A stretch of 64,000 bases of DNA, taken from positions 124,001 through 188,000 of the forward strand of contig BPKO01000006.1 in assembly GCA_026005175.1 (NCBI GenBank). The letters are read 5' to 3'. Shown piece after piece: positions 46,262 through 62,267 of this stretch. Both the position numbers and the translations under genes were made by a program. Source of the DNA: Candidatus Tectimicrobiota bacterium (GTDB lineage Bacteria; Tectomicrobia; Entotheonellia; Entotheonellales; Entotheonellaceae). The notes under the pieces were generated by a model. The model did not search any database and was not told the origin of the DNA. It was given only the letters and a program-made list of their open reading frames with translations. Numbering within the stretch: position 1 is the stretch's first letter; each line of letters starts with the position of its first letter.

Positions 46262-47914
46262 TCAAGACGATGTTAACACGCGACCATCGGTCACCTGCTG
46301 CACGTGCAAGTCTCGCGCCAGCCGCCGCGCCGGCGGCGTGATGGTAGCCCCAGCCACCACCGGCACGGTAACCGTTCCCGTCTTGGCCAGTAACGTAGCC
46401 CGCTCGGCGGCACGCTGCACATCCCTGGGCCCCACGCCCCAGGAGACCTCGACCACCAAGTACACGGGGACGTCGTCCTCGCGACGCCGGCCGGTGACGA
46501 TGATATCTGCCTGCGTCACTTCCTCGGCCTCAGCCTCGCTCAACTGGCCCTGTGCTATGGCTTCGGCAAGCAAGGCCACCAATTCGTCCCCAAACACCAC
46601 GTGCGGCCGCCTCACCAGCGGCGCAAAGTAGGCAAAGGCCCGCTCGCGGTAGCGCCGCTCCAAAGCATCGCCTTTCAGCATGCCGACCTCCACAGTGAGA
46701 CGGTCGAGGCGCCGCTCAGTGCGCCGCTGCGCTGCCACCAGCTGGGCGACTTGCTCTTCCAGGTGCCGCTGGGCCTCGCTGAGCTGCTGGAAGCGACGTT
46801 CGGTTTCAGCACGCAGCCCCGCTAGCTCTTGCTCGGTGCGCTGCTGCGCTGCCACCAGCTGGGCGACTTGCTCCTCGGTGCGCTGCTGGGCCTCGGTGAG
46901 CTGCTGGAAGCGACGTTCGGTTTCGGCACGCAGCCCCGCAAGCTCTTGCTCAGTGCGCTGCTGCGCTGCCACCAGCTGGGCGACCTGCTCTTCCAGGTGC
47001 TGTTGGGCCTCGGTGAGCTGCTGGAAGCGACGTTCGGTTTCGGCACGCAGCCCCGCTAGCTCTTGCTCGGTGCGCTGCTGGGCCTCGCTGAGCTGCTGGA
47101 AGCGACGTTCGGTTTCAGCACGCAGCCCCGCTAGCTCTTGCTCGGTGCGCTGCTGCGCTGCCACCAGCTGGGCGACTTGCTCCTCGGTGCGCTGCTGGGC
47201 CTCGGTGAGCTGCTGGAAGCGACGTTCGGTTTCGGCACGCAGCCCCGCAAGCTCTTGCTCAGTGCGCTGCTGCGCTGCCACCAGCTGGGCGACTTGCTCC
47301 TCGGTGCGCTGCTGGGCCTCGGTGAGCTGCTGGAAGCGACGTTCGGTTTCGGCACGCAGCCCCGCTAGCTCTTGCTCGGTGCGCTGCTGCGCCTCGGTGA
47401 GCTGCTGGAAGCGACGTTCGGTTTCGGCACGCAGCCCCGCTAGCTCTTGCTCGGTGCGCTGCTGCGCCTCGGTGAGCTGCTGGAAGCGACGTTCGGTTTC
47501 GGCACGCAGCCCCGCTAGCTCTTGCTCGGTGCGCTGCTGCGCCTCGGTGAGCTGCTGGAAGCGACGTTCGGTTTCGGCACGCAGCCCCGCTAGCTCTTGC
47601 TCGGTGCGCTGCTGCGCCTCGGTGAGCTGCTGGAAGCGACGTTCGGTTTCGGCACGCAGCCCCGCTAGCTCTTGCTCGGTGCGCTGCTGCGCTGCCACCA
47701 GCTGGGCGACTTGCTCTTCCAGGCGCTGTTGGACAGCGACCAGCTGCGCCAGGCGCTCCTCGGTACGCTGCTGGGCCTCGATGAGCTGCTGCATCAGCGC
47801 CGGCAGGCCCAGCAGCTCATCGGTGAGCACCAGACGGCGCACCTCATCTAGCCATTCAGGCCGTTCGCGCAACAGGCGCAGAAAATCGCGCAAGTCATCG
47901 GCGGTAAAAGGCAT
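46262..47914 (-). CDS. Coiled-coil repeat protein with PD-(D/E)xK nuclease-like C-terminus
   Basis: A 550-residue protein. Residues 1-65 form a helical head (MPFTADDLRDFLRLLRERPE). Then come ten copies of ELAGLRAETERRFQQLTEAQ, in units of 25 or 39 residues, predicting a long coiled coil rich in Q, E and R. The last 140 residues have ADIIVTGRRR followed by VYLVVEVSWGVG, a D...(E)xV core like that of PD-(D/E)xK nucleases (the DUF3782 type, as I recall it). Such proteins are common in filamentous and uncultured bacteria and have unknown function. ATG 47914 follows GGAAGGAGGAAGG. It is a single gene. Confidence 0.75.
   Translation of the reverse strand: MPFTADDLRDFLRLLRERPEWLDEVRRLVLTDELLGLPALMQQLIEAQQRTEERLAQLVAVQQRLEEQVAQLVAAQQRTEQELAGLRAETERRFQQLTEAQQRTEQELAGLRAETERRFQQLTEAQQRTEQELAGLRAETERRFQQLTEAQQRTEQELAGLRAETERRFQQLTEAQQRTEQELAGLRAETERRFQQLTEAQQRTEEQVAQLVAAQQRTEQELAGLRAETERRFQQLTEAQQRTEEQVAQLVAAQQRTEQELAGLRAETERRFQQLSEAQQRTEQELAGLRAETERRFQQLTEAQQHLEEQVAQLVAAQQRTEQELAGLRAETERRFQQLTEAQQRTEEQVAQLVAAQQRTEQELAGLRAETERRFQQLSEAQRHLEEQVAQLVAAQRRTERRLDRLTVEVGMLKGDALERRYRERAFAYFAPLVRRPHVVFGDELVALLAEAIAQGQLSEAEAEEVTQADIIVTGRRREDDVPVYLVVEVSWGVGPRDVQRAAERATLLAKTGTVTVPVVAGATITPPARRLARDLHVQQVTDGRVLTSS
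46796..47717. repeat. Tandem 75/117-bp coding repeats
   Basis: Ten repeats, spaced 75 or 117 bases, lie within the coiled-coil gene. Units between about 47343 and 47717 are nearly identical in sequence and all 75 bases apart. The longer units carry a 42-base insert encoding VAQLVAAQQRTEQE-like heptads. The near identity points to recent expansion by slippage or recombination, and makes this locus prone to length change and assembly error. Confidence 0.85.
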
Positions 47915-48055
47915 CCTTCCTCCTTCCCTGGCAATTATAGCACACGAGGAAGGGCTTCCTTTGTTATGTGGGATGAGCAGAGGCGGCACTCCCTGCTCGT
48001 AGCAGCGGCCTGCCACAGTGGGGTACAGCGTAGCATGGGGGAACAGCGCTGGCGC

Positions 48056-48898: not shown

Positions 48899-49152
48899 AC
48901 CGGTTTCCTTTGGTCATCCTGCAATTCCCTGCTGGTCTTTTATACCGCCACGCCTGGCAAGTCGTCAAGCACGTTTCGGCGGTTCCAGGCTGTCCACGCG
49001 GCCGTCAGGGGCGGTCAGCAAATCATCAGAATGTCGTCAAGATCTGCCGGGGCCGGCGGGGTATATTGACGGGTACCTCTTGCGGCAGGGCTTCTGGGTG
49101 GAGCCAGCGCAGCCCCCAGGGGGTGTCCCGCAACGACCAGGAGGGAAGCGCC

Positions 49153-50751
49153 ATGAAAACACTGGTTGTGAGTGGTCTTTTGCTCACGCTTGTGGTTCTC
49201 GGGGGGCAGGCCAGGAGTTGGGGGGAGGCGGGGCCAGCGCCGCGGGGAGAGATCCACGTTGTGGATCAGCATCCCCTGAACTGGATCTGGGTGACGCTGA
49301 GCGTTTTCGAGCACCTTATTACCCTCGATAAGCACGGCAAGTTGGTGCCACGCCTGGCCACCGGGTGGCGGTGGCTCGATGACCGCACCCTGGAAGTCAC
49401 CCTGCGCCAGGGGGTGCGCTTTCACAACGGCGAGGTCTTCGATGCCGAGATCGTCAAGCTCAACTGGGAAGAAAATACCCGGCTCAAACAGCCCTTTGTA
49501 CCGGGGCAATTTTTGAGCTTCAAAGCGGGATCGACCCTGCAAATCATCGATCCGTACACGGTCCGGTTTGTCTTTCCAGAACCCGACGGCGGCGCCCTGG
49601 CCAAGCTCACCATCGTGCACATGGCCAACCGGCAGTTCTATCGTGAGTTCGGCTGGGGGGAGAAACACTGGTGAATCGTCGACGGTGCCGGCCCGTGGGG
49701 CACCGGCCCCTATAAACTGGTCGCAGGCTTTTCTCTCCCCAATGAGCGTGCTGAGCGCCTCGTGCTGGAAGCCAATCTGGACTATTGGGATACGGCGCGG
49801 CGGCCACGCCTGCGGCGCATCGTCTTCGACAACACGCAGGGGCAAAAAGACGCCCTCGAGGCGGTGAAGACCGGTGAAGGAGAGGTGGACCTGGTCACCG
49901 GATTAAGCCCCCTCGAGACCCTGCAGGTGGCCCAGAGTCCTTTTGCCACGGTGGTGAAAAACCGCGGCGCTCTGGTGACGGTGTTTGGCATGTTCAACAT
50001 GCGGAAACCCGGGAGCCCGTGGACCGACGTGCGCCTGCGCCAGGCAGTCAATTATGCCATCAACCGCGCCGACCTCATTCGCTATGCCACCAAGGGCAAT
50101 GGGGTGATCATTCCCGCCCTGGTGCCGCACCAGGGGTTTGGGTACGACCCCGATCTGGCTCCCTATCCCTTTGCTCCCGCCAAAGCGCGGCAGCTGCTGC
50201 AGGCCGCGGGTGTCCCGCAGGGCATGGCCATCACCCTGGTGGCCCCGGAGGACCTGGAAGTGCAGGCCACGGTGATCGGCAAGATGCTGGAGCAGGTGGG
50301 CTTTACGGTGCGGCGCGAGGTGCTCGACGCCTCTGCTTACAATCGCAAGACGTTTCTCAGCCATCTGGCGCAGCCCGCCGAGCACCAAACGTGGGATATT
50401 GCCCTGGCCTCGTGGCTGGATCTGCTCAATTTCCCGGTTTTTCAGGTCTACCACTTTTTCGCCCTCGATGGGCCGTACGATTGGGTTCGCGAGCAGCCGG
50501 CGCTGCGCCAGCTGCGTGACCAGGTCCTGCGCACCGTGGACCGGGAGCGGCAAGCGGCGCTCATCCGCCAGATGGAGCGGCATACGCACGAGCAGGCGTA
50601 TTTCCTCTTCCTGTACAACCCCATCCAGCTCTACGCGGTGAACAAGGCGGTGCAGTTCGTGCCCTACTTGCACGTGTTCAGCCTGGCCGAGACCGCGGTC
50701 AGCGAGCAGCACTGGTCGCTGCGCAAGCAGAAGGCCGCGGTGCCCGAGTAA
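49153..50751 (+). CDS. Family-5 (peptide/opine-type) substrate-binding protein with in-frame TGA at codon 174
   Basis: The single frame is interrupted once, by TGA at 49672-49674, and otherwise encodes a 532-residue exported binding protein. Upstream are a signal peptide (MKTLVVSGLLLTLVVLGG) and LEVTLRQGVRFHNGEVFDAE. The sequence then reads GWGEKHW, TGA, IVDGAGPWGTGPYKL, and continues with FNMRKPGSPWTDVRLRQAVNYA to the end. The frame is unchanged across the TGA, unlike the other breaks in this window. A 6-bp hairpin follows at 49684-49704 with spacing suitable for selenocysteine insertion. So codon 174 may be Sec; a nonsense mutation is the alternative. DUF2182 and DUF1326 genes follow. Confidence 0.75.
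49684..49704 (+). promoter_or_regulatory. Hairpin after the in-frame TGA, SECIS candidate
   Basis: GGTGCC (49684-49689) pairs with GGCACC (49699-49704) around GGCCCGTGG. The loop begins with GG and starts 15 bases after the TGA at 49672-49674. A hairpin with a G at the start of a small loop, roughly 16-37 bases after UGA, is the general description of bacterial SECIS elements. There is no bulged U, so it fits less well than the one at 62633. Confidence 0.4.
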
Positions 50752-50775: not shown

Positions 50776-51561
50776 ATGAGTACCGCGCTGGAAACCCTCC
50801 TCAAGCGCGACCGTCTGGTGGTCATGAGCGGTCTGGTGGGCATCGCGGCGCTGGCCTGGGCCTACATGGGGTATCTCGCCGCTGACATGGCGGCCATGGA
50901 CGCCGCCATGGCCCTCGCTATGCCCCGCCTGCAGGCCTGGGGCCTCCTGGAGCTGGTGCTGCTCGGGGTCATGTGGGCCGTCATGATGGTGGCCATGATG
51001 GTGCCCACGGCGGCCCCCATGCTGCTGCTCTTTGCCACCATCAACCGCCGGCGTCGCGCCCAGCAGCGGCCCTACGTGCCCACGGCGATCTTTCTGGGGG
51101 GCTATCTCCTGGTCTGGACCGCGTTCAGCGCCGTGGCCACCCTGGCGCAGTGGGGGCTGCACGCGGCGGCGCTGCTCTCGCCAATGATGGCGAGCCGCAG
51201 CCCCCTCCTGGGCGGCGGCTTGCTGCTGGCCGCGGGGATCTATCAGTGGACACCTCTCAAGTACACCTGCCTCCGGCACTGCCGCACGCCGCTGGGCTTT
51301 CTCATGACCGACTGGCGTGAAGGAGCAAAAGGGGCGCTGGCGATGGGCATTAAGCACGGCCTGTACTGCACGGGCTGCTGCTGGGTGCTCATGGCGCTGC
51401 TGTTTGTCGCCGGCGTGATGAACCTGCTGTGGGTTGCGGCCATCACCGCGTTTGTGCTGGTCGAAAAAGTCGCGCCGCGTGGCGACTGGGTAGGGCGGCT
51501 GGCCGGCAGCAGCCTCGTCGCCGCCGGCCTGGTGCTGCTCGGCCAGGCCCTGGCCAGGTAA
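50776..51561 (+). CDS. DUF2182 metal-binding-type membrane protein
   Basis: A 261-residue integral membrane protein with about seven helices. Its second helix region VMWAVMMVAMMVPTAAPM is rich in Met, and two cysteine clusters are seen (CLRHC near 166 and CTGCCW near 195). This is the pattern of DUF2182 proteins, annotated as predicted metal-binding membrane proteins. They are usually found next to DUF1326 proteins, as here. Copper or another soft metal is a reasonable guess. ATG 50776 has GGGAGAAGGAG upstream. Confidence 0.82.
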   Translation: MSTALETLLKRDRLVVMSGLVGIAALAWAYMGYLAADMAAMDAAMALAMPRLQAWGLLELVLLGVMWAVMMVAMMVPTAAPMLLLFATINRRRRAQQRPYVPTAIFLGGYLLVWTAFSAVATLAQWGLHAAALLSPMMASRSPLLGGGLLLAAGIYQWTPLKYTCLRHCRTPLGFLMTDWREGAKGALAMGIKHGLYCTGCCWVLMALLFVAGVMNLLWVAAITAFVLVEKVAPRGDWVGRLAGSSLVAAGLVLLGQALAR

Positions 51562-51632
51562 AGGGCATGGCCGGCAGGGGCAGGGGATCCGGTGGTCCCT
51601 TGCCGATTCACAACCTCTGACAGGAGAAAGAC

Positions 51633-52265
51633 ATGAGCGAGACCCCGACCCGGACACCCTGGCGGCTCAAAGTGCACAATCTGGAAGCGTGTAATTGCAG
51701 CAACGGCTGCGGCTGCCAGTTCAACGGCTTTCCGGACTACGGTGGCTGCGAGGCCATCATCGGCTACGAAGTGATCGCCGGCCACTACGGCAACGTGGAC
51801 CTCAGCGGCGTGCGGGCGGTCTTTGCCGGCAAGTGGCCCGGGGCCATTCACGAAGGCCACGGCCAAGGCGTGCTCTTCATCGACGCGGCGGCGCGGCCCG
51901 AGCAGGTGGAAGGCCTGGCCAAGATCTTCTCCGGGCAGGCCGGGGGCATGCCCTGGGAAGCCCTGGCCGCTACCCTCGACACCGTCGAAGGCCCGCTGCT
52001 CAAGCCCATTGCCATGACCGTCGACGGCCGCCGCTCGCACTTTGCCATTGCCGGCGTCCTCGAAGTCGCCATGACCTCGCTCATCAACCCAGTGAGCGGG
52101 GAGGAGAGCGAAGTGCACATCGTCTACCCCAAAGGCGGCTTCCTCTGGAACGACGGCGATGTGGGCACCACCTCCACCATGCGCATCGACCACGGGGCGT
52201 TGCGCTTCCAGTATCCGGGCAAGTGGGCTGCCTATGCCGTCGCCGAGTGGAGCAATCAGGGATAA
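51633..52265 (+). CDS. DUF1326-family protein
   Basis: A 210-residue soluble protein with the family's cysteine motif ACNCSNGCGCQF near residues 20-31, likely a metal site. GYEVIAGHYGNVDLSGV and SHFAIAGVLEVAMTSLINP are further conserved parts. DUF1326 and DUF2182 genes travel together in many bacteria; the function is unknown. ATG 51633 has CAGGAGAAAG upstream. The 100 bases after it hold no gene before the hybrid kinase. Confidence 0.82.
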   Translation: MSETPTRTPWRLKVHNLEACNCSNGCGCQFNGFPDYGGCEAIIGYEVIAGHYGNVDLSGVRAVFAGKWPGAIHEGHGQGVLFIDAAARPEQVEGLAKIFSGQAGGMPWEALAATLDTVEGPLLKPIAMTVDGRRSHFAIAGVLEVAMTSLINPVSGEESEVHIVYPKGGFLWNDGDVGTTSTMRIDHGALRFQYPGKWAAYAVAEWSNQG

Positions 52266-52365: not shown

Positions 52366-55342
52366 ATGGGCGGCAAGCGGCGGAAGGCGTTCCGCAACCT
52401 CAGCATCCACGGCAAGATGCTGGCCATCGTTGTGCCGCTGATCGCCATCCCCATGCTCACCCTGGCCACGGTCGGGTTTGTCGTCGCCAGCCGTGAGGCG
52501 GCCAAGACCAGCACGCGCTACCTCAAGCAGCGCGAAAACGACCTGCGCACCCTGGCCGAGCACCCGGCCATCCGCGACTACTACTACAACACCATGTACG
52601 GCCCTGACAGAAGAAGCAGAGGTCTACCGCCGCGAACTCGCCCGTTCCCTGCAGCGCTTTGCCGAGCGCAGCAACAGCATCGAGCGGATTTACACCCAGG
52701 TGCGCTACGTCGACCACCGTGGCTTCGAAGCCGTCAAGATTCTCTCCGCGCCGGAGAAAGCTGCCCACGCGCTTGAGGCGCAAACGGCTGCCGCCAGCCA
52801 CAGCCGCCGCGAGCACACGCGGGTCGCTCCGTCGTTTTTTACCGCAATGCGCTCCCTTGCGCCACAGCAGCTCTACCGCTCGCCGCTTGGCCCCGCCATG
52901 CACTACGCCATGCCGGTGTATCAACCTGGCAGTGAGGCACAGCCCCCGACTTTCCTGGGCGCGGTGGTGCTCGACTTCGTCTATCCCTTGCGGGAGTTCC
53001 AGCGCACTGCCGGGGCGATCACCCTCTGGTTCGCCGTCCTGACCGCCCTCAGCCTGGGCGTGGCCCTGTGGCTCACCTTTAACCGGGTGCGGCGCCTGGC
53101 CGCTCCCATCCGCCGCCTGGCCGAGGCAGCCAACCGCATTGCCGCCGGTCAGCGCGCGGTCACCGTGACCTACGACGCCGAGGACGAGATCGGGCTGCTG
53201 GCGCGGTCTTTTAACGCCATGGCCCAGAGCCTGGACGCCCAGGAAGCGGCTTTGCACCGCAAAGTGGTCGAAATGACCGCGCTCTACGAGATCGGCAAGG
53301 AAATTGCTGCCCGGGTAGCCCTGGCACCAACGCTCGAGCTCATCGTAGCCCGCGCCCGGGCGCTTCTTCAGGCCGATGCCAGCCTGCTGGCCCTGCGCCA
53401 GGAGGAGAGCCACACGTTCGTCATCGAGGCCCACAGCGGCACCGTCCCGGACGCCATAATCGGCACCCGCTTTCGGCCTGGAGAGGGGCTCGGCGGACGC
53501 GTGGCCGCCACCGGCCACCCCCTCCTGGTGGGCGACTACGCGACGGAATGCGCCGATAGTCCGTTCCTCCAGACCATCCAAGAAGCCGGACTGCGCGCCT
53601 GGCTCGGCGTGCCGCTGCAGGCACGCCACACGGTGATCGGGGTCCTCTACGTCGTCAGCCGCACGCCGCAGCAGTTCCGTGACGCCGATCAACAGCTGCT
53701 GAGCGCCCTGGGCGACCAGGCCGCCATTGCCATCGAGAACGCCAGGCTCTACGAGCAGGTGCGGCAGTATACCGAAGCGCTCGAAGCCAAAGTGGCCGAG
53801 CGCACGCAGGCGCTGCAAGAAACCAACCAGAAGCTGGAGGCGGCATCGCGGCACAAATCGGAGTTCCTGGCCAATATGTCGCACGAGCTGCGCACGCCCA
53901 TGAATGCCATCATCGGCTTCACCCGGCTGGTGATGCGGCGCTCCAAGGATGTCCTGGCACCGCGCCAGTACGAAAACTTAGAAAAGATTCTCATCAGCGC
54001 CGAGCATCTGCTTTCCCTGATTAACAGCATTCTGGACCTGTCGAAAATCGAAGCCGGCAGGATCGAGGTCTACCCGGTTGAGTTTGCCCTGGCGCCTCTC
54101 ATCGCCGAGTGCGTGCACACCGTCGAACCGGTGCGCAGGAGTGATGAGGTGCAGCTGGTACAGGACCTCGAAGCCGGCTTGCCGCCCCTGGTGACGGATC
54201 GGGAGAAAGTGAAGCAGATCCTGATGAATCTCCTAAGCAATGCGGTGAAATTTACCCCGGCCGGCACCATCACCGTCACCGCCCGCTGCCGCGGCGACAC
54301 GCTCACCATAGCGGTCGCCGACACCGGCATCGGCATTCCCGAGGCGGCACTGACACACATCTTTGAAGAATTTCGCCAGGTGGATAGCAGCACCACGCGG
54401 CAGTACGGCGGCACTGGGCTGGGACTGGCGATCAGCCGCCGCCTGGCCCGCCTTCTGGGCGGGGAGATTACCGTGCAGAGTACGCTGGGAGAAGGCTCCA
54501 CCTTCACCGTGACGCTGCCGCTGCGCTACGGTGCCGGGCAGCCGCTGCCGCGCCCGGCAGAGGTGCCGGCGGCGCCCGCGCTCGGGGCAGAGGACAGGCA
54601 GGTGGTGCTGGTTATCGATGACGACCCCAACGCCATTTACCTCCTGCAAGAAAACCTTGGTGAGGCCGGCTATCGCGTCATTGGGGCCACCCACGCTGAG
54701 GAAGGACTCCGCAAAGCGCGGCAGCTCAAGCCCTATGCCATTCTCCTCGACATCCTCATGCCCCACAAAGACGGATGGCAGGTGCTCCACGAGCTCAAAG
54801 CCGACGCGGCCACCCGCGATATCCCGGTGGTGCTGCTCTCCATTGTGGACCAGAAGGCGCTGGGCTATCGCCTGGGCGCCTTCGACTACTTGTTGAAGCC
54901 CGTTGATCGCGAGGCCATTCTTGTCACCTTGCGGCGTATCTCACCGCAGCGCCGCCGCCTCCTGGTAGTGGACGACGACCCCCAGGTGGCAGAGCTGGTG
55001 CGCCAGTGCCTCGAGGACGAGCCGTACCTTATTGAAGCCGCCAGCGACGGCCAGGCAGCCCTGGAAGCCATCGCCCGGCAGCAGCCGGACGTCATCCTGC
55101 TCGATCTCCTCATGCCGCGGCTGGACGGCTTTGGCGTGCTGGCCCACTTACAGCGCCATCCCCGCCACCAGCAGATTCCGGTGATCGTTCTCACCGCCAA
55201 ACCCTGCACCAGGGAAGAAGAGGCGCGGCTCCACGAGCGCGCCCGCACGATCATTTACAAGCAGGGGCTAGAGCCCGCGGCGCTCATCCGGGAGGTGCGC
55301 GCGGCGCTTCTGGCCTACCGTCCCGCGGGCGGGGAGTCGTAA
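52366..55342 (+). CDS. Hybrid histidine kinase: sensor, HAMP, GAF, HisKA, HATPase, two receivers; frame break near 52603
   Basis: The N-terminus (MGGKRRKAFRNLSIHGKMLAIVVPLIAIPMLTLATVGFV) has a first membrane helix and runs to NTMYG. One base less in the CCC at 52602-52604 joins it to LTEEAEVYRRELARS in the frame of the rest. After a periplasmic sensor domain comes a second helix (ITLWFAVLTALSLGVALWL), HAMP, a GAF domain, a coiled coil, and HisKA (MSHELRTPMNA, His phosphorylated). HATPase_c follows with ADTGIGIP and GTGLGLAI. Two receivers come last (LVIDDDP...LLDILMP and LVVDDDP...LLDLLMP). The total is about 991 residues. It heads an operon with a receiver protein and a receiver-cyclase. Confidence 0.85.
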
Positions 55343-58776: not shown

Positions 58777-59676
58777 TCAGGCAGCACGCGACACGCGCAC
58801 ATCCAGCGCATCGCGCAGGCCGTCGCCGATGCAGTTGATGCTCAGCACCGTAACCATGATCGCCAGCCCGGGGAAAATGGCCAGCCACCAGGCAAGCGTA
58901 AAAAAGCCGCGGGCACCGCTCAGAATAAGGCCCCAGGTGGGGGTGGTGATTTTCACCCCCAGCCCCAGGAAGGAAAGCGTCGACTCGGCGAGGATGGCGT
59001 AGGAGACGCTCACCGTGGCCTGCACGATGAGGGGAGCCAGGCTGTTGGGCAGGAGGTGGCGCAGGATGAGGCGCAGGTCGGAAGCGCCGGTGGCGCGTGC
59101 TGCCACCACGAACTCTTCCTCGCGCAGGGCCAGCACTTCGGCCCGCGCCAGGCGGGCAAAGTCGTCGATGTAAGCCAGCGCCACGGCCACGATGACGTTG
59201 CCCAGCCCCGGGCCAAGGATGGCCATGAGGCCGACGGCGATGATCAGCGCCGGGAAAGCCCACTGCAAGTCGATGTAGCGCATGATGAGCAAGTCGACCC
59301 AGCCCCCGTAGTAGCCTGCCACCAGCCCCAGGGGTACGGCGGCGAGCATGGCCAGGAGCACGGCAGCAAAGCCCACAGTGAGGGAAATGCGGGCCCCGGC
59401 GATGAGGCGGCTGAGCAAGTCGCGGCCAAACTCGTCGGTGCCCAGGGGGTGTTGCCACGAGGGCGGCGCCAGGAGGTCGAATGCCTGCGCGTTGGGGTCG
59501 TACGGCGACAGCAGCGGCCCCAGCAGCGCGGTGAGCACCAGTCCTCCCAGCACCAGGAAGCCGGCCACCACCTTGACGTCGCGGCGCAAGTAGCGCACCG
59601 CCCGCCGCCACTCGCTGACCGCCGGCGCCGGCGGAGCCGCTGCGGCAGAAACAGAAGACGACACAGCTGGCCTCAT
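58777..59676 (-). CDS. Peptide/nickel-type ABC permease (DppC-like)
   Basis: A 299-residue permease of the DppC/OppC type. The N-terminal DPNAQAFDLLAPPSWQHPLGTDEFGRDLLSRLI segment is diagnostic, and the core EAA loop lies in EEEFVVAARATGASDLRLILRHLLPN. Five to six helices are predicted. ATG 59676 overlaps the stop of the DppB-like gene (ATGA), so the two are translated together. No ATPase gene follows in this window; a shared or distant ATPase must serve it. Confidence 0.88.
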   Translation of the reverse strand: MRPAVSSSVSAAAAPPAPAVSEWRRAVRYLRRDVKVVAGFLVLGGLVLTALLGPLLSPYDPNAQAFDLLAPPSWQHPLGTDEFGRDLLSRLIAGARISLTVGFAAVLLAMLAAVPLGLVAGYYGGWVDLLIMRYIDLQWAFPALIIAVGLMAILGPGLGNVIVAVALAYIDDFARLARAEVLALREEEFVVAARATGASDLRLILRHLLPNSLAPLIVQATVSVSYAILAESTLSFLGLGVKITTPTWGLILSGARGFFTLAWWLAIFPGLAIMVTVLSINCIGDGLRDALDVRVSRAA

Positions 59677-60617
59677 TCGTAGCGAATCCGCGGGTTGATG
59701 TACGTGTAAAGGATGTCCACGAGCAGGTTCATGCCCACGAAAATGCCGGCAATGAGCAGGATGGCGCCCTGCACCACGGGGAAGTCGCGGTTGATGATGC
59801 TGCGCACCAGGGTGCGCCCCAGCCCCTGGATGGCAAACACCTCCTCCACCACCACCGCCCCCACCAGCAGCAGGGAAAAAGCGATGCCGATCACCGTGAT
59901 CACCGGGATGAGGGCGTTTTTCAGGGCGTGCTTGAGAATCACCACCCGCTCGCGCAGTCCCTTGGCGCGCGCCGTGCTGATATAGGGGGCGTGCAGCACC
60001 TCCAGCATAGCCGAGCGCGTCATGCGCATGATGATGGCGGCAAAGGCGGTGCCGGAAGTAAACGCCGGCAGCAGCAAGTGGCGCAGCCAGGGCCAAAAGC
60101 CTTCGCTGAGGGGCACGTAGCCCAGGGCGGGCAGCCAGCCCAGCTTCACGGCAAACACCAAGATGAGCACGATGCCCAGCCAGAAGTTGGGCATGCTCAA
60201 CCCCAGAAAGGCCACCACGGTGGCCACGTGGTCGGGGAAAGTGTGCTTCTTGAGCGCCGAGACGATCCCCGCCGGGAGGGCCACTGCCAGGCTAATGGCC
60301 AGGGCCAGCACGGCAATGGCAAACGTGCGTGGCGCCGCCTGCCCCAGCAGCACCAGCACCCGCTCGCCGTTGACGATGGAGCGCCCCAGGTCGCCGCGCC
60401 CCAGGTTCCAGAGCCAGAAAACGTACTGCACGTAAAAGGGCCGATCCAGCCCCAGGTTGTGGCGCAGCTGCGCCACCGCCTCCGGGGTGGCCTCCGGGCC
60501 GAGCATGACGCTCACCGGGTCACCGGGGATGGCGCGCAGCATGAAGAAAACGAGCGTCGCCACCCCCCACATGACGAGCACGGCATAGAGGAGGCGCTTG
60601 CAGAGGTAGCGGCGCAT
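59673..60617 (-). CDS. Peptide/nickel-type ABC permease (DppB-like)
   Basis: A 314-residue permease starting MRRYLCKRLLYAVLVMWGVATLVFFMLRAIPGDP, the usual DppB N-terminus. The conserved cytoplasmic loop reads YISTARAKGLRERVVILKHALKNALIPV, and it ends INPRIRYE. It lies between the binding-protein gene (three bases upstream) and the DppC-like gene (overlap), forming an operon of binding protein, B and C subunits. Confidence 0.88.
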   Translation of the reverse strand: MRRYLCKRLLYAVLVMWGVATLVFFMLRAIPGDPVSVMLGPEATPEAVAQLRHNLGLDRPFYVQYVFWLWNLGRGDLGRSIVNGERVLVLLGQAAPRTFAIAVLALAISLAVALPAGIVSALKKHTFPDHVATVVAFLGLSMPNFWLGIVLILVFAVKLGWLPALGYVPLSEGFWPWLRHLLLPAFTSGTAFAAIIMRMTRSAMLEVLHAPYISTARAKGLRERVVILKHALKNALIPVITVIGIAFSLLLVGAVVVEEVFAIQGLGRTLVRSIINRDFPVVQGAILLIAGIFVGMNLLVDILYTYINPRIRYE

Positions 60618-60620
60618 CGC

Positions 60621-62267
60621 TCAGGCCAGCCACACCTCACTCAGGTCCCAAGCCGGCGTCGGGGCAAAGACAAAGCCTTTGACTTCCTTGCGCATGGCCA
60701 GGTACTCGATGAGGTGGTGGGTAAAGGCCATGGGGGCGTCGGCCATGATGAGGTCCTCGGCCCGGTGTACCAAGGCGATGCGCTTTTGCACGTCGAGCTC
60801 GCGGAACTGCTGCTCGACGAGGGCGTCCACTTCCGGGTTGCTGTAGCCAAAGCTGTTGAACTTGGCCCCGGTTGGGAAAAAGTCGCGGATGGAGTCGTTG
60901 GGGTCGAGGTCGGCGCCGCTACCCCCTAGCAAAGTTTCGAAGTCGCCGGCCACCTGGCGCTTGAAGTAAACCGAAGGGTCGACTTGCTCGATGTCGAGCG
61001 TGATGGGCAGCACCTGCTCCAGCAGCGGCTTGAGCACCTGCGCGCCGCGCAGGTTGCCGCGTACCACCGAGGTGAGCAGTTTTACTTTCAAGGAGCCAAC
61101 GCCGGCTTCCTGCCACAGCCGCTTGGCCGCTTCGGGGTCGTAGGCCTGCGGGCTGGTGGTGAGTTTTTCTGGCCGCCAGTAGAGCTTCTGCGCCGCCGGG
61201 ATGGGTCCGGTGTCGGGCTGCACGCGGCCAAAGTAGCCGCGCTTGGCCAGCGTCTCGCGGTCGATGGCCTTGGCAATGGCCAGGCGCACCCGCCGGTCGC
61301 GAAACGCCAGCACCGTCTTCTGGTTGAGGATCAAGGCCTGGAAGCCCGGGTCAGGGCCTTGCAGCACGGTGACGCCAGGGTCGGCTTCCAGCAGGGGCAA
61401 AAACTGCGCCTGCACGTTGTTGAGGAACTGCACCTCGCCGGTGCGCAGCGCCGCCACCGCCGTTTCTGCCTCCGGCACCGGCACGATGGTAACCATGTCC
61501 AGCTTGGGCTTGCCCTCAATGAAGTAGTCGGGGAAGCGCTCCAGCACCAGCCGCTGGCCGACGATGTGCTCTTTGACCCGGAAGGGGCCGGTGCCCACCG
61601 GCGTCACCTTGTACTGCTGCGGCCCCATTTTCTCGAGCGCCGTGCGGCTGACGATGGTCATCGCCCGCGCCGGAAAGCGCGACAGGGTGGCGATGAGAAA
61701 CGCCGCCGAAGGGCTTTTGAGGGTGAACTGTACTTCGTACGCCCCCAGCTTGGTCACCGCCTCGATGTTGGCCAGGCGCGGGCGGTGGATGGAGCCGACT
61801 TTGGGGTCGTTGGTGCGCTGGTACGTAAACAGCACGTCGTCGGCGCTAAACGGGGCGCCGTCGTGAAAGCGGACGCCGCGGCGCAGCTGGAACGTCCACT
61901 GGCGGCCGTCGGCCGAGACCTCCCAGCGCTCGGCCAACTCCGGCTGCGGGGTGAGGGCGGCGTCGATATGCACCAGGCCGCTAAAGATGTTGGCCGCTGC
62001 TTGCATCTGCTCGGTGACGTTGATAAACGCCGGGTCGAGGATGGCAAACTGGTCGAGGTTCCAGCCTGCCTTGAGGTGGCCACCGCGGCCCGCCGCCGCC
62101 AGCGGTGGCGGCAGGGAGGCCGCCAGGCCCAGCAGGCCGGTGGCCGCCAGCAGGCGCAGCACCGCCCGCCGGCTCATCGGCGGGCCGCTGAGCTCGGCGG
62201 CAGTCAGCCCGAGCATGGGATCGCGCGGGTCAAAGTCCCAAAGGTCGACGAGGTGGTGCGGTGCCAT
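60621..62267 (-). CDS. Peptide-type substrate-binding protein with a Tat-like signal
   Basis: A 548-residue family-5 binding protein. A 30-residue leader precedes MSRRAVLRLLAATGLLGLAASLPPPLAAA, a twin-arginine-type signal (SRRAVL). The mature part has FQLRRGVRFHDGAPFSADDVLFTYQRT and VGTGPFRVKEH, both typical. It is only distantly related to the interrupted binding protein at 49153. ATG 62267 follows GGGAGGAAAG. It heads the operon with the two permeases, divergent from the OsmC-like selenoprotein gene with 144 bases between starts. The substrate (peptide, nickel chelate or opine) cannot be told. Confidence 0.86.
   Translation of the reverse strand: MAPHHLVDLWDFDPRDPMLGLTAAELSGPPMSRRAVLRLLAATGLLGLAASLPPPLAAAGRGGHLKAGWNLDQFAILDPAFINVTEQMQAAANIFSGLVHIDAALTPQPELAERWEVSADGRQWTFQLRRGVRFHDGAPFSADDVLFTYQRTNDPKVGSIHRPRLANIEAVTKLGAYEVQFTLKSPSAAFLIATLSRFPARAMTIVSRTALEKMGPQQYKVTPVGTGPFRVKEHIVGQRLVLERFPDYFIEGKPKLDMVTIVPVPEAETAVAALRTGEVQFLNNVQAQFLPLLEADPGVTVLQGPDPGFQALILNQKTVLAFRDRRVRLAIAKAIDRETLAKRGYFGRVQPDTGPIPAAQKLYWRPEKLTTSPQAYDPEAAKRLWQEAGVGSLKVKLLTSVVRGNLRGAQVLKPLLEQVLPITLDIEQVDPSVYFKRQVAGDFETLLGGSGADLDPNDSIRDFFPTGAKFNSFGYSNPEVDALVEQQFRELDVQKRIALVHRAEDLIMADAPMAFTHHLIEYLAMRKEVKGFVFAPTPAWDLSEVWLA

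Follow-up and report, generated by a model that had tools for sequence, protein, structure and literature searches.

Does the in-frame TGA in a family-5 substrate-binding protein (SBP) gene of this genome encode selenocysteine (Sec), and if so, what might a lone Sec do in such a protein? The gene and its surroundings, as they lie in the window (the whole 64,000-nucleotide stretch of DNA analysed here), are set out in Table 1. The original prediction placed the TGA at codon 174, between GEKHW and IVDGAGPWGTGPYKL, with no change of frame, and we find it exactly there. The open reading frame is otherwise intact and closes with TAA; translated through the TGA, it gives a single SBP_bac_5 protein (PF00496, 1.2e-55, residues 63-437, a match that spans the TGA), which meets the membership criterion of that family with 189.5 bits against a gathering cut-off of 32.4. 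Judged from sequence, we consider it very probable that UGA-174 is decoded as selenocysteine and that the gene is a genuine selenoprotein gene; Sec insertion itself is inferred, without protein or Se-75 data.

Table 1. Features of the SBP gene and its downstream neighbours, numbered along the window.
Feature	Position	Strand	Basis or remark
SBP_bac_5 gene, predicted Sec-containing; 532 aa, single TGA, no Cys codon	49153..50751	+	sequence, Pfam
Ribosome-binding site AGGAGGG ahead of ATG	49139..49145	+	sequence
Probable N-terminal signal peptide, MKTLVVSGLLLTLVVLGGQARSWGE	49153..49227	+	extent by eye, inference
In-frame TGA, codon 174, predicted Sec	49672..49674	+	same column TGA in L065 (P0002) and L079 (P0004)
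His156 codon, invariant in the 3 Sec proteins and the Cys-type relative	49618..49620	+	profile alignment
Conserved D-x-x-GPWGTGP codons, immediately 3' of Sec	49681..49710	+	alignment
Bacterial-SECIS-like hairpin	49684..49709	+	loop GTG 49695-49697, 20 nt past TGA, -13.7 kcal/mol
PpoB2 (DUF2182, PF09948), copper-chaperone-family membrane protein	50776..51561	+	24 bp downstream of SBP gene
DUF1326 (PF07040) protein, Cys-rich N-terminus CNCSNGCGC	51633..52265	+	Pfam
Hybrid histidine kinase, HAMP-GAF-HisKA-HATPase-receivers, frameshift in N-terminal sensor part	52366..55342	+	

The strongest evidence for this conclusion comes from distant homologues. A tblastn search of a plasmid collection returned as its best match a stretch of the Methylobacterium radiotolerans plasmid pNYY1_1 that carries no listed gene. 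The encoded protein is 34% identical to the window protein and has TGA at the identical column (EGHW, TGA, VIDAPGPWGTGPF against GEKHW, TGA, IVDGAGPWGTGPY in the window). A profile built from these two sequences was used to find a third TGA member, in a genome of a phylum other than the window's (G669; NGNW, TGA, IIDAPGPWGTGPF). The three TGA proteins have in common the motif W-U-[IV]-[IV]-D-x-x-GPWGTGP[FY] and are 34-37% identical to one another. Identity is 38-48% before the TGA, 32-36% after it and 31-33% from 16 columns onward, and the residues near the codon are invariant on both sides, W before it and D-x-x-GPWGTGP after. Likeness and invariant residues on both sides of the TGA indicate that translation crosses the codon. 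The G669 protein (L079 8020-9645) also has an insert of ~20 residues near AVQRAKPFACTWLIEKEDRT, just past the GPWGTGPF region.

These comparisons bear directly on whether the gene is simply broken, a TGG or other codon having been misread or mutated once to leave a sequencing error, a nonsense mutation or a pseudogene. Frameshifting does occur in the assembly, at least in the histidine kinase gene at 52366-55342, and a relative from the same class (G004) retains no more than a remnant of the SBP gene, with an internal deletion. Against this, two independent homologues, 34-35% identical to the window protein, have TGA at that column too, and protein conservation extends for 358 residues past the TGA without a frameshift. 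Because repeated independent error at one column of three distant proteins is not credible, we regard this explanation as barely tenable. The sole gene break that we examined, the one in the kinase, is a frameshift. The G004 remnant (L060 430-735) still encodes the signal peptide and the C-terminal 55 residues but is missing ~420 internal residues, through either a deletion or an assembly error, and the Sec column is therefore not readable there.

Genes of this kind are few: TGA members total three in ~1,000 genomes and the plasmid collection. Among 149 genomes of its phylum G669 alone has the TGA motif, and a scan of those genomes for the pattern W-U-x-x-...-GP-x-GTGP gave nothing beyond it; the predicted Sec gene is thus rare in that phylum but keeps its TGA. 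The same pattern scan found no additional member in 398 Pseudomonadota genomes, a pattern scan and profile search of viral contigs found none, and in further plasmid searches the known methylobacterial match stayed the only Sec member. A scan of named genomes with the window protein as sole query returned ordinary SBPs only. Such a gene can be overlooked in annotation as broken: the table for the Methylobacterium plasmid in PLSDB lists no gene directly upstream of selB, and locus tags RS29210 and RS29215 are missing there. This gene table is incomplete, with pseudogenes omitted, and the missing tags fit annotation as a broken gene, although we have not seen the original record.

All three TGA members are accompanied by genes for Sec machinery. 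The window genome has SelA and SelB above curated cut-offs and a tRNA-Sec with anticodon TCA found by ARAGORN, that is, tRNA-Sec(UCA); SelD was not seen in the single stretch of this genome that was inspected. In G669 a tRNA-Sec scores 70 bits, and SelB is represented by its C-terminal part, the remainder being cut off by the contig end. On pNYY1_1 the annotated selB begins 82 bp beyond the stop of the SBP gene; no tRNA-Sec was found on the plasmid, the chromosome not being included. The formate dehydrogenase alpha gene of this plasmid (L081 6603-9575) lies ~12 kb from selB and has no in-frame TGA, which leaves the binding protein as the sole Sec candidate seen near that selB. The Sec reading of the original prediction thus gains support from TGA at the identical column in both other Sec-type homologues, from unrelated lineages and each with Sec-machinery genes.

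UGA is the leakiest stop codon, and in the absence of protein data it could be suppressed with a standard amino acid such as Trp or could act as a regulated stop that yields a 173-residue form. The machinery genes that accompany each of the three TGA members, once directly downstream, speak against this, as does the fact that a 173-residue form would miss most of the fold. The nearest homologues without the TGA carry Ala, or Cys at or one residue from the column, and not Trp, and we consider suppression or a regulated stop very unlikely. The check proposed in the original prediction, whether the column is TGA in several genomes, came out positive in two further homologues. On its minus strand, at 58777-62267, the window also holds another SBP_bac_5 gene, an ordinary one, together with permease-like genes (judged by eye to be of DppBC type). 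This SBP gene terminates in TGA, which is therefore also a normal stop in this genome.

The hairpin downstream of the TGA adds less. A model of bacterial SECIS elements specifies a loop of 3-9 nt with G in its first two positions, a stem of 4-16 bp, a spacing of 16-37 nt and an MFE of -7.5 kcal/mol or lower (PMC13188914). The 6-bp hairpin GGTGCC/GGCACC that had been put forward as evidence for Sec is present at 49684-49704, with the 9-nt loop GGCCCGTGG and -10.3 kcal/mol, but its loop lies 15 nt past the TGA, 1 nt outside the published spacing. A better hairpin (Table 1) overlaps it and is common to all three TGA genes, each of which satisfies the published limits with loop GTG at exactly 20 nt (-13.7, -18.0 and -17.3 kcal/mol). 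However, 87-97% of synonymous recodings, which served as GC-rich controls, are also compliant, and in 21-27% of them per gene the loop falls at exactly 20 nt. Agreement of all three on this spacing would arise by chance in ~1.6% of cases, a figure from our own multiplication that assumes three independent genes, yet these are homologues. Compared with shuffles, the 62-nt stretch folds no better (z = -0.13), and an argument from free energy was dropped after these controls; the hairpin cannot be told apart from the GC-rich background. A search of Rfam around the plasmid gene gave no match. The hairpin is compatible with Sec decoding but is weak support, not proof.

A tree built from 41 family-5 proteins places the three Sec proteins in one cluster with two relatives that lack Sec, G052 and G689 (support 100/99), while a single origin of Sec within this cluster is unresolved (support 40/3). 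G052, the only genome sampled from its phylum, has Ala at the Sec column. The G689 relative (FGWNGKATCPNLAEPGLYGLGPY) has a Cys whose place varies with the position given to a one-residue gap: it falls either at that column or one residue from it, and in the alignment as made it is one column away. Across five relatives, the Sec column is the only one at which at least two share Cys or Sec. The top structural matches are family-5 SBPs (5u4o, Z 30.4, 3.2 A over 441 residues; NikA 1zlq, Z 26.9, 3.5 A over 450 residues). The AlphaFold model confirms the fold but, with pLDDT <50 in the Sec loop, does not show how close this loop lies to the ligand pocket. In a profile alignment, Arg137 of E. coli NikA, which we take to be a pocket residue, aligns with His156 of the window protein.

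The neighbouring genes offer clues to function. The original prediction described the next genes as encoding Cys/Met-rich putative metal proteins; the first is a PpoB2 copper chaperone, probably in the same operon as the SBP gene, and the second a DUF1326 protein with the CNCSNGCGC stretch. In G004 the counterpart of the hybrid kinase (L060 742-3639) is intact, has a weak dCache_1 match and lies directly 3' of the SBP remnant; the PpoB2 and DUF1326 pair (50776-52265 in the window) is missing between the two. The gene after the G689 relative combines a borderline dCache_1 match with a HAMP domain in an arrangement as in chemoreceptors. Sensor-kinase or Cache/HAMP receptor-like genes follow the SBP gene in the window, in G004 (as a remnant) and in G689, whereas neither a permease nor an ATPase gene of the ABC type was seen next to any of five members (window, methylobacterial, G669, G689 and G052, the last three annotated by eye). 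No Cache-type sensor was seen adjoining the methylobacterial or G669 genes. Upstream in the window, the protein at 46262-48016 consists of many near-identical repeats of QQRTEQELAGLRAETERRFQQLTEA followed by a non-repetitive C-terminal part.

Since the genes that come after it in several lineages are of the sensor-kinase or receptor-like kind and not ABC genes, we infer a sensory role, and a sensory binding protein is the reading that we tentatively prefer for the window organism, unproven as it is. We envision that the host's SelA, SelB and tRNA-Sec would decode UGA-174, aided by the SECIS hairpin shortly downstream, and that a single selenolate would thereby be positioned in a family-specific loop ahead of the GPWGTGP motif. 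This selenolate could act as a soft ligand or nucleophile toward a bound solute, for which a soft metal or metalloid complex and a thiol or selenol compound are candidates. The exported binding protein would report the presence of its ligand to the hybrid histidine kinase encoded downstream, while PpoB2 and the DUF1326 protein would supply co-regulated metal-handling functions. Binding of a soft metal is conceivable but lacks proof. Neither the methylobacterial nor the G669 protein has an obvious signal peptide, so both fit poorly with a periplasmic sensor, and the role may differ in those hosts.

Two other functions have to be weighed. The protein could serve an ABC importer of metallophores, peptides or thiol/selenol compounds as its binding subunit, with the permeases encoded elsewhere: the fold and the closest sequences are those of importer SBPs (NikA, GsiB and relatives), orphan SBPs are able to share permeases, and the window has an SBP and permease operon at 58777-62267. 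The absence of any permease or ATPase gene seen beside the five members (three of them annotated by eye), the lack of an obvious signal peptide in two of them and scores far under the NikA and GsiB equivalog cut-offs (at most 86 bits against NCBIfam cut-offs of 393-1005 for NikA, GsiB and DppA) count against it, and an importer subunit remains a real but unproven possibility. Alternatively, Sec could belong to a thiol/selenol redox enzyme, peroxidase- or reductase-like, built on the SBP fold, as many selenoproteins are oxidoreductases or bear redox motifs (PMC13188914). However, cysteine is absent from the window protein and not conserved among the members, which leaves Sec without an intramolecular resolving partner, and we think a redox enzyme improbable. 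For the sensory protein that we prefer, the lack of cysteine leads us to infer a lone-ligand role for Sec and not half of a Cys/Sec redox pair. It remains speculative, and on present evidence rather unlikely, that the full scenario holds: a new family of sensory SBP selenoproteins that capture a compound of a soft metal, a metalloid or selenium with a lone selenolate and signal this to a kinase or receptor of the Cache type. In this scenario the genes would travel on mobile DNA with selB, as on the Methylobacterium plasmid, and might give such hosts a reason to retain Sec decoding.

From the sequences alone, the gene appears to belong to a small, apparently undescribed family of selenium-containing binding proteins, the predicted residue being almost certainly Sec. 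These proteins matched no NCBIfam model above its cut-off, and we found no Sec-containing family-5 SBP in the open-licence literature, which does not exclude an earlier mention elsewhere. A 2026 review counts 119 prokaryotic selenoprotein families, without SBP family 5 among them; its binding-protein selenoproteins are SaoB, SaoX and a BtuF-like protein (PMC13188914). SaoB and SaoX (NF040727 and NF040735; listed in PMC13188914) are likewise substrate-binding proteins with predicted Sec, and SaoB is believed to bind metals through it. They are nevertheless other families, and neither model is among the matches of the window protein at E up to 0.001. Sec lies in the motifs CUxxT and UxP there, as opposed to W-U-[IV]-[IV]-D without Cys in the window protein, and SaoP, an ABC permease subunit, belongs to the Sao set, whereas no such subunit was seen beside the window gene. 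The BtuF-like cobalamin-binding selenoprotein is also a binding protein with predicted Sec, but it has a different domain model (cd01144) and a CxxU motif (PMC13188914).

The fold itself is familiar. NikA, CntA and GsiB have it, and the Pfam family PF00496, in common with the window protein, yet they are only ~20-25% identical to it, it scores far beneath the equivalog cut-offs, and we know of no Sec form of any of the three. If our reading of UGA-174 is correct, the carriers of selenocysteine would gain a large and well-studied fold, that of NikA, OppA and DppA, in a protein without any cysteine, so that what one selenolate contributes to capturing a ligand could be tested directly.
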